Below the pieces are notes generated by a model, which did no database searches, was not told where the DNA came from, and worked only from the letters and a program-made list of their open reading frames with translations. Shown here piece by piece: positions 4,189 to 10,899 of a stretch of DNA of 11,302 bases (position 1 is the stretch's first letter; every line of letters begins with the position of its first letter). This DNA comes from Actinobacteria bacterium 21-64-8 (GTDB lineage: Bacteria; Actinomycetota; Acidimicrobiia; Acidimicrobiales; RAAP-2). Position numbers and translations under genes: made by a program. The stretch lies in assembly GCA_002255315.1 (NCBI GenBank), contig NCBD01000066.1:1-11302 (forward strand). The letters run 5' to 3'.

Positions 4189-4913
4189 TGGCGAAGTCCC
4201 GCGCGATGGAGCGACGCACGCGAGTGCTCGTCGTCGAGGACGAGGAGTCATTCATCGACGCGCTCACGATTGGTCTCGAACGCGAGGGCTTCGACGCCAC
4301 CATCGCCCGCGACGGGCAAGAGGCGCTTACGATTTTTCACGCCGATCAATTTGACGTCGTGCTCCTGGACCTGATGCTGCCCAAGTTGTCCGGACTCGAC
4401 GTCTGTCGCTCCATGCGAGCGGCCAGTGACGTGCCCATCATCATCGTGAGCGCCAAGGGCGAAGAAGTCGACATGGTCTTAATGCTCGAAGTTGGTGCCG
4501 ACGACTACGTCACGAAGCCCTACCGCCTGCGCGAACTGGTGGCGCGCATTCGCGCGGTGCTTCGTCGACGTGAGACGCCCGTGCCCGACGAGAACGACGA
4601 AGTGCTCGAGCTGGGTTCGATTCGAATGGAGCTCGACGCACGACGCTGTTTCGTCGGCGGCGACGAAATCAAACTGCGAAAAAAAGAGTTCGCCTTGTTG
4701 CGACTCTTACTCGAAAATCCTGGTCGCGTCCTCACTCGTGATGTGTTAATTGACCGCGTCTGGGGCAGTGACTACGTCGGTGACACGAAGACCCTCGACG
4801 TACACATCAAGCGGCTACGCACGCTGATAGAAGATGATCCCAAACACCCCGAACACATCACGACCGTACGCGGCGTGGGCTATCGATTCGAAACTACGAA
4901 GCCTTCGCCGTAA
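4188..4913 (+). CDS. OmpR/PhoB-family response regulator, RegX3 type
   Basis: A 241-residue DNA-binding response regulator and the cognate partner of the kinase just upstream. The receiver domain (about residues 11-125) has the acidic pocket VVEDEE (Glu17/Asp18), phosphoacceptor Asp61 in VLLDLMLP, the switch Ser88 in IIIVSAK, and Lys110 in DDYVTKPY. The C-terminal winged helix (about 140-236) carries LRKKEFALLRLLLENPG, the recognition-helix region TLDVHIKRLRTLIE, and the wing TVRGVGYRFE. All key residues are present, so it should be functional. The chosen ATG at 4188 overlaps the kinase TAA; a second ATG at 4206 would remove six residues and is also plausible. The 3' end overlaps the convergent serS gene by 20 bases. 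It resembles RegX3, but the regulated genes are unknown. Confidence 0.9.
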   Translation: MAKSRAMERRTRVLVVEDEESFIDALTIGLEREGFDATIARDGQEALTIFHADQFDVVLLDLMLPKLSGLDVCRSMRAASDVPIIIVSAKGEEVDMVLMLEVGADDYVTKPYRLRELVARIRAVLRRRETPVPDENDEVLELGSIRMELDARRCFVGGDEIKLRKKEFALLRLLLENPGRVLTRDVLIDRVWGSDYVGDTKTLDVHIKRLRTLIEDDPKHPEHITTVRGVGYRFETTKPSP

Positions 4914-5994
4914 GACGCGTCGCGCCCCCGAGGTACGGAGCGAGCACGTCGGGTAGCGCCACCGAGCCGTCCGCCTGACGGTAGGTCTCGACGAGCGCGG
5001 CCCAGATTCTCGCCCACGCGAGCGCTGAACCATTGACCGTGTGCACCAACGCCGTCGTGCCGTCGGCGCGCCGATAGCGCACGTTGGCGCGGCGGGCCTG
5101 GTAGTCACGGAACCACGACACCGACGAGACCTCCAGCCAACGATCAACGCCCCTCGTGTCGCGTCCCGCCGCGCCGGCCTCACGACGAAAGCACGCGGTT
5201 TGGGCGGTCATGCGGATCGGGAGGGCCGCCTCGTCCAAGATCTCGCCTCGGTGCATGGAGGTCAGCGGCACCTCGGCCGTAGGGATTGCCCACAGGTCGT
5301 CGCGAGGAATGGAATACATATCGTCTTGGGACTTTGGGAGGTGACCGGTCGAGGTCATGGTCTCGGTGAGCGCGAAGCTCGGCGGCCGGATTTCTTCGTA
5401 GGCGTCGAGGTGCGCGTCGAGGGCGAAGGCTCCGAGCGCGCGCAGAAGTCGCGCGCCCGCGCCGCGATAGAGCGGGAACATCGAGCCGGCCATGCGCGCA
5501 CCGGCCTCGAGGTCCAAAATGCCGAGCTCGCGGCCAATCTCCCAGTGCGGCACACGCTGGTGAGCCTCAAACTCGGGAAACGGCGCGCCCTCGTCGATGC
5601 CCACCCACCACCGGCGAAGCTCCACGTTGTCCTGGTCGTCGCGACCGTCGGGCACGTCGGGCGCGGGGACGTTGGGAATCTGCAGGAGTGCCGCGCGCAG
5701 CGTGGCGCCCACGCGCTCACTTCTTTCACTGGCTTGGCGCTCTTCAGTGCCGAGCTGGCGTGAGCGAATCGTCAAGGTCTCGGCGCGGGCGTCGTCGTGA
5801 TCACGTCGCGCCTCTCCCACTTGGCGCGAAAGTTCCTTCACCTCCGCGCGCAGTCGTTCACTTTCTTGGAGCAGGCGTCGGTGTTCGACGTCGAGCGTCA
5901 AAATCTCGTCCATGGTCGACGACGAGACGCCACGGCGGGCCAGCGCGGCCTTTATTTCGTCGGGTTCTCGTCGCAGTTGCGCCAGGTCGATCAT
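4894..5994 (-). CDS. serS: seryl-tRNA synthetase with an apparent in-frame loss of part of the catalytic core
   Basis: SerRS charges tRNA-Ser with serine. The 366-residue product begins MIDLAQLRREPDEIK, has a tRNA-binding coiled-coil arm at about residues 35-100, then a class II catalytic domain with TAEVPLTSMHRGEIL (about 239-253), motif 2 CFRREAGAAGRDTRG (268-282) and motif 3 NGSALAWARIWAA (321-333). Family members are about 420-430 residues. In them the DTRG of motif 2 is followed by L/I-RVHQFDKVE, a helical segment, the CTGDLG serine-binding region and FD-x-E, before WLEVSS/SN. Here DTRG runs directly into VDRWLEVSSVSWF, so roughly 60-75 residues appear absent with frame preserved (junction near 5149). 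The missing part holds the second strand of motif 2 and ATP/Mg- and serine-binding acidic residues, so normal activity is doubtful. The ATG start is well supported by the first residues and the adjacent -10 box. Confidence 0.88.
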   Translation of the reverse strand: MIDLAQLRREPDEIKAALARRGVSSSTMDEILTLDVEHRRLLQESERLRAEVKELSRQVGEARRDHDDARAETLTIRSRQLGTEERQASERSERVGATLRAALLQIPNVPAPDVPDGRDDQDNVELRRWWVGIDEGAPFPEFEAHQRVPHWEIGRELGILDLEAGARMAGSMFPLYRGAGARLLRALGAFALDAHLDAYEEIRPPSFALTETMTSTGHLPKSQDDMYSIPRDDLWAIPTAEVPLTSMHRGEILDEAALPIRMTAQTACFRREAGAAGRDTRGVDRWLEVSSVSWFRDYQARRANVRYRRADGTTALVHTVNGSALAWARIWAALVETYRQADGSVALPDVLAPYLGGATRLTAKAS

Positions 5995-10225: not shown

Positions 10226-10408
10226 GTGAACTGGTTCAATACCATGGGAGCCCTGATCAACCTGGATCATCCAGGCCACTTCATTCATTGGCACTTCATC
10301 GAAATTAGCGTCGCGAACTTTATCGTCATCGTCCTCATGGTGGCGACATTCGTGACCGCGCTGCTCGCCCCCTTTCCTGGTCGCCGTCGCCGTAGGGAGA
10401 CCCGATGA
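10226..10408 (+). CDS. 60-residue His-rich single-pass membrane protein
   Basis: A short protein beginning MNWFNTMGALINLDHPG. It has a His cluster HPGHFIHWHF (His15, 18, 21 and 23), a membrane helix at about residues 26-49, and a basic tail GRRRRRETR. The positive-inside rule places the tail in the cytoplasm and the His cluster at the outer face of the membrane. It is real: it has a strong Shine-Dalgarno, and its TGA overlaps the next gene's ATG (ATGA). The context is an operon with a cytochrome b-domain protein, so it may be a small subunit of that complex. The His residues could ligate heme or metal, or sit near a quinone site; this is inference. I recall similar short proteins before cytochrome b genes in other actinobacteria but cannot name a family. 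Confidence 0.75.
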   Translation: MNWFNTMGALINLDHPGHFIHWHFIEISVANFIVIVLMVATFVTALLAPFPGRRRRRETR

Positions 10409-10899
10409 GCACTACTGAGATTGATCGTCAATGGACCACGCGACTGCGCCGTCGCGCCGCGGGTAAGTTGCCGCCCGAGAAACTGTTGCCCGACACGCAG
10501 CCGGCCTATGTCGCCTCGTGGATTTACGTCTTTGGCGTCACCACGATGGCCGCGTTGATGATCGTAATTCTGACCGGCTGCGTGCTGGCGATTGAGGGTC
10601 CCCAGTGGTGGCACCTCTCGACTATCGGGCACTTCGTGAATTCGCTGCACCTCTGGAGCGTCGAGATTTTCTTCTTCGCAATGGTCGTGCATCTCTGGGG
10701 CAAGTTCTTTATGGCGTCGTGGCGAGGTGGACGCACGCTCACCTGGATGACCGGGGTCGTCACTTTCCTCGCGTCAATCGCGACCGCCTTTACCGGTTAC
10801 GCGAGTCAGAGCAACTTCGACTCCCAGTGGATTACCACGTTAGTGCGCGTAAAGGGTGTCGTACCCCCCTTTGCCGATGACAAGGAGACCGCGCGATGA
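10405..10899 (+). CDS. cytochrome b N-terminal-domain protein lacking helix D
   Basis: A 164-residue membrane protein resembling helices A-C of the bc1/b6f cytochrome b N-terminal domain. Helix A covers about residues 36-62. Helix B carries His82 and His96, 14 residues apart, the usual spacing for ligands of hemes bL and bH. Helix C (about 112-132) ends in FTGYASQSNFDSQW. In cytochrome b the second ligand pair lies in helix D, but here QWI is followed at once by TTLVRVKGVVPPFADDKETAR and the stop. From memory, actinobacterial relatives have about 60 more residues between the two, including a helix D with His residues, and then end in a similar LVR-x-x-GVVPP tail. An in-frame deletion is therefore suspected (junction near 10831-10842). 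ATG at 10405 overlaps the upstream stop, and its own stop overlaps the next ATG. As it stands it could not bind two hemes alone. Confidence 0.8.
   Translation: MSTTEIDRQWTTRLRRRAAGKLPPEKLLPDTQPAYVASWIYVFGVTTMAALMIVILTGCVLAIEGPQWWHLSTIGHFVNSLHLWSVEIFFFAMVVHLWGKFFMASWRGGRTLTWMTGVVTFLASIATAFTGYASQSNFDSQWITTLVRVKGVVPPFADDKETAR
10882..10887 (+). promoter_or_regulatory. Shine-Dalgarno site (AAGGAG) of the last gene
   Basis: AAGGAG lies eight bases before the ATG at 10896, inside the end of the cytochrome b-domain gene. It supports that ATG, which overlaps the preceding TGA (ATGA). Confidence 0.75.

Follow-up and report, generated by a model that had tools for sequence, protein, structure and literature searches.

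Seryl-tRNA synthetases (SerRS) of the bacterial type (family TIGR00414; structure PDB 2dq3) are the closest described counterparts of the serS product encoded in the 11,302-nucleotide stretch of DNA analyzed here (hereafter the window). The window copy shares with them the N-terminal arm, the start of motif 2 (CFRREAG) and the C-terminal strand with the motif 3 region, but it is assembled without 69 residues that include HEFDKVE and LCAGDLG. SerRS homologues that have acquired other roles, such as the amino acid:carrier protein ligases and SLIMP, are SerRS-derived proteins from which parts or residues have been lost, and they retain a folded catalytic core. In contrast, the window copy misses the core itself, in a shape that was seen in no relative. 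A different kind of counterpart is offered by the local assembly errors of metagenome-assembled genomes (MAGs). As set out in passages of PMC7111523, these errors can be told by imperfect read support, carry incorrect protein-coding genes into databases when assemblies are left uncurated, and are suspected to be prominent in the output of one assembler. The likeness to the errors described there lies in a locally wrong sequence, in incorrect protein-coding genes and in the presence of several cases per assembly; the difference is that those errors are defined by read support, whereas the serS case is known from the assembled sequence only. We have little doubt that the missing block of serS is a local error of assembly (or of the library) in the fragmentary MAG of an uncultured Acidimicrobiales bacterium.

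As assembled, serS encodes a product of 366 residues in which motif 2 runs straight into VDRWLEVSS, a peculiarity already described in the first-pass annotation and borne out both by the open reading frame and by alignments (coordinates of all features are collected in Table 1). That annotation had located the loss of an in-frame catalytic block at 5143-5160; protein alignment places the junction inside this interval, between codons 282 (GGC, 5149-5151) and 283 (GTT, 5146-5148). In an alignment with ten homologues chosen from the 120 listed, 69 residues, corresponding to 207 bp, are gone in frame between G282 and V283. At the DNA level, the alignment with the closest genome (G018), covering 300 bases on each side, contains a single gap of 207 bases and no other gap. 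The initial estimate of 60-75 missing residues thus agrees with the 69 obtained from protein alignment, from the best-matching protein (P0001) and from G018 DNA. In homologues, the block extends from LLRVHEFDKVELF through the SPG ahead of VDRWLEVSS and reads LLRVHEFDKVE...LC(A/T)GDLG...SPG. The motifs first proposed for it, HQFDKVE and CTGDLG, occur in other SerRS. Within the block, 23 of the 69 positions are invariant (in 79 of the 80 genome loci that span it). Following the labels of the first-pass annotation, we take the block to include the strand that succeeds the motif 2 loop, as well as the CxGDLG region. A complete class II catalytic core, with both of these elements, is absent from the assembled copy and, from what the class II fold requires, a SerRS devoid of them should not charge tRNA.

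The profile matches mirror this architecture. With a whole-protein score of 303.0 bits, the product lies barely above the curated TIGR00414 cut-off (301.65) and belongs to the family on that basis, although the score is gathered in two stretches: residues 1-285 align with model positions 1-278, positions 279 to 346 are skipped, and the match restarts at 347. A two-stretch match that skips the block is also obtained with PDB SerRS chains (the three with alignments shown). The N-terminal tRNA-binding arm (PF02403) is present at residues 1-110 with 73.7 bits, and the motif 3 region (NGSALAWARIWAALVE) is retained and aligns with the homologues. At its 3′ end, serS is convergent with the response-regulator gene, and the two overlap by 20 bp (4894-4913).

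Table 1. Features of the window and interior losses in its host assembly (G000)
Feature	Position	Strand	Remarks
serS (serine--tRNA ligase)	4894..5994	(-)	ORF, 366 aa; TIGR00414, PF02403, part of PF00587
serS deletion junction	5146..5152	(-)	69 codons (207 bp) absent, G282/V283; exact base ambiguous by a few positions
Cytochrome b (N-terminal part) gene	10405..10899	(+)	164 aa as assembled; Pfam PF00033/PF13631
Cytochrome b deletion junction	10839..10840	(+)	132 bp, 44 residues absent, in frame
In-frame losses in G000			serS 207, cytochrome b 132, helicase 120, chorismate synthase 108 bp
Out-of-frame losses in G000			GlpD 97, pyruvate dehydrogenase E1 alpha 142, phosphoribosyltransferase 34 bp
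Interior deletions or garbled stretches in housekeeping genes on other G000 contigs	L133 5963-7042; L134 5172-7256; L131 5915-6846; L200 4626-5758; L193 near 2750; L187 1504-2970; L132

The block is present in all 120 listed homologues (431-437 aa; the best 120 of 8000 scored). Judged from this sequence comparison, its absence from the window gene is far beyond chance, and such a departure from the pattern of close relatives is what an assembly error in a MAG is expected to leave. Exactly 69 residues occupy the block site in 114 of 123 loci. The other nine comprise four of the window's own, two from a contig joined at this place by a 2-N scaffold link, two from what seems a single contig that breaks off there, and L003, a different gene; since some loci are the same contig taken from two collections, they are not all independent. 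The DNA of the junction was matched in 88 of the 99 genus genomes searched and, among the matches listed, none except the window's own crosses it by more than ∼10 bases. The best match, P0001, is a protein of 435 residues recorded as 'MAG TPA: serine--tRNA ligase [Acidimicrobiales bacterium]', which aligns to PDB 2dq3 in one stretch (residues 1-425). It is identical to the window protein at 366 of 366 positions, as compared at the protein level, and adds the 69-residue block. A deletion, if real, would be too young for even one residue to have changed. On the strength of this identity, the ordinary serS gene of what is very probably the same species stands in another public record. The organism itself very probably possesses an ordinary SerRS of 435 residues with which tRNA-Ser is charged. 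It had been laid down in advance that some 180-225 extra bases at the junction in close relatives would indicate an assembly error; G018 has 207 more, and P0001 has 69 more residues.

The host assembly (G000) consists of 1.38 Mb in 249 contigs and is 65% complete. We sampled 61 of these contigs, including the window (20 of the 61 were masked and unreadable, which left 305,631 readable bases), for comparison with 728,685 bases of G018 in 60 contigs. When non-overlapping G018 frames were aligned, 9 of 114 genes proved to be garbled or devoid of an interior piece in G000, the same picture as given by an earlier pair of scans on less sequence. Seven of the nine are simple net losses of 34 to 207 bp, while an FtsW/RodA-like gene (C24) and an MFS-like gene (C9) are garbled or rearranged. 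Chorismate synthase additionally contains a stop codon in G000, and ∼40 unaligned bases accompany the 142-bp loss in pyruvate dehydrogenase E1 alpha. Gene names on the sampled contigs (helicase, chorismate synthase, GlpD, pyruvate dehydrogenase E1 alpha, phosphoribosyltransferase, FtsW/RodA, MFS, PfkB and IspG) were read from the sequence. A tenth candidate, PfkB-like on C9 (19 residues), stands outside the count of nine, and two rows were dropped from the forward comparison: a small frameshift and a difference of 30 bp within an acidic sequence of low complexity (L148 17433-18077). In the reverse direction (112 G000 frames against G018), one loss of 37 bp was called in G018 and dropped, because its position, upstream of ispG, was judged to be non-coding. 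Two small-frameshift rows were dropped as well, a 71-bp 'has extra' row (L187) was left uncounted, and the other 'has extra' rows mirror the losses of G000. The contrast of nine versus none gives a Fisher p = 0.003 and that of seven versus none p = 0.014, the two events of the window, which were known beforehand, being included in both counts and the dropped G018 call in neither. Damage scattered over unrelated genes of G000 and not found in the comparison genome is again what would be looked for in a MAG assembly error.

Which of the two genomes is the odd one was examined for four sampled genes in eight more genus genomes. The pieces lost from the helicase, from pyruvate dehydrogenase E1 alpha and from chorismate synthase were found in all eight (one match of the latter ends at residue 135, beyond the piece), and the piece lost from GlpD in seven, of which two have the gene split between contigs, the eighth being without a match. 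As the lost pieces are present in seven or eight of the eight genomes, the odd one is G000, and interior gaps were seen only in this assembly among the genus genomes searched. One of the other cases, in cytochrome b, shares the 11.3-kb contig with serS and goes unmentioned in the first-pass remark on serS. Its gap sits between WITT and LVRVKG, and the 44 residues, present in eight of eight loci compared, include two histidines in a membrane helix that we take to be haem ligands. A gene-by-gene comparison of the window with eight loci (of which L038 is too short to cover the left-hand genes) revealed interior gaps of at least 5 residues in serS, cytochrome b, the ORF at 381-1616 and, once, the response regulator. 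The gaps in the latter two are small (5-8 residues) and look like natural variation.

Three readings had been offered at first sight: an assembly deletion, which our results support, a second serS and a function other than tRNA charging, which they do not. The second serS matters to the idea of a genuine deletion of very recent date, carried by the sampled strain or by part of its population, with another serS sustaining the cell or the lineage dying. A deletion as young as this is expected to leave the remaining protein unchanged, as seen with P0001, and the genus genome G019 does carry two full serS copies. It would nevertheless call for deletions just as young in several more genes, among them those for cytochrome b, a helicase, chorismate synthase, GlpD and pyruvate dehydrogenase, and neither a second serS nor a stray block was found in G000, an assembly that is 65% complete and in which the block was searched for without a positive control. 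We consequently regard it as very unlikely. The profile search of the contigs returned the gene of the window and a weak match on C158 only; the latter was rejected as a second serS, its frame looking like glycyl-tRNA synthetase as read from the sequence. Exceedingly little weight is left for the broader proposal that the sampled cells truly carry the deletion, with the arm kept and the core lost in frame, as members of a lineage in which interior blocks are disappearing from essential genes and the functions are supplied by other copies or by neighbors.

A protein derived from SerRS and turned to a new role, in which the tRNA-binding arm is kept and the catalytic core is lost, would suit the intact PF02403 arm and motif 3 region. 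Yet this shape is shared by none of the 120 listed homologues, the matches listed from the 99 genus genomes contain no junction-crossing sequence beyond ∼10 bases except the window's own, the remainder is identical to the ordinary SerRS P0001 and so betrays no changed constraint, and the deletion would be expected to disrupt the class II core. Such a role is scarcely credible. AlphaFold prediction bears neither way on the deletion, because the full-length control P0001 (mean pLDDT of 48.0 with 10 sequences) was modeled as poorly as the 366-residue protein (51.2 with 11 sequences). The idea that genome decay has made serS a real pseudogene gains some appeal from the several broken housekeeping genes of G000, some of them frameshifted and one interrupted by a stop codon. 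It has next to no chance of being correct, given that the broken genes are core ones and that the serS flanks have accumulated no residue changes relative to P0001; an interior loss with no decay elsewhere is rather the pattern that an assembly error would produce.

We thus favor the local assembly error. Two pieces of an ordinary serS would have been put together without the intervening 207 bases, the reading frame surviving by chance, and the cause would lie in assembly rather than in the DNA of the cell. Candidate types of error are a chimeric read, faulty scaffolding and an incorrect join where coverage was missing. What points in this direction is the scatter of losses of 34 to 207 bp, some in frame and some not, over core genes of one incomplete MAG, together with the existence of an otherwise identical P0001. 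Repeat collapse was set aside as a cause: in the relatives looked at, the block edges have little beyond a Gly codon in common, which makes a collapse via a long direct repeat unlikely. Three observations were counted against an artefact. In these relatives the junction has no long direct repeat by which a simple collapse could be explained; the frame is kept in 4 of the 7 simple losses versus one in three by chance, which is a small number; and the nearest listed proteins for the neighboring histidine kinase and ABC ATPase are 95% and 92% identical, not the 100% expected if the P0001 contig covered the same neighborhood. The loss of the serS block has no meaning as biology and serves instead as a warning. 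Several housekeeping genes of G000 miss catalytic blocks, and some of them are still in frame and hence look intact. Deletions that keep the frame can slip past gene callers and family cut-offs, as does serS just above that of TIGR00414, and assembly deletions of this kind could be taken for novel enzyme variants.

Other assemblies of the genus are disturbed at the same place. In G029:C51 (L014 2375-2376 = L122 1302-1303), two Ns and a duplicated overlap stand inside serS at RVHEFDKV, which corresponds to a type of error described in a passage of PMC7111523, where Ns are inserted although the flanks overlap. In another genus MAG (L015/L053), the contig ends at nearly the same place of serS. 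Together, these two cases suggest that assembly may be difficult in this conserved stretch. Separately, one genus genome (G019) has a full-length serS on each of two contigs, C8 and C17 (L028, L118), a pair that may represent either a genuine duplication or mixed binning and that can be compared with L063 and L082 of isolate E14_bin-2996.

As for the rest of the window, a search against Rfam families gave no match, and the gene order over its whole length matches that of four relatives (L034, L035, L036 and L048). Adjoining serS and its neighbors, positions 3-2816 on the minus strand hold genes that include a TrbL/VirB6-like membrane protein (a weak Pfam match, below the cut-off). The order of these genes is the same in four relatives, and they possibly form a conserved chromosomal secretion-like locus.
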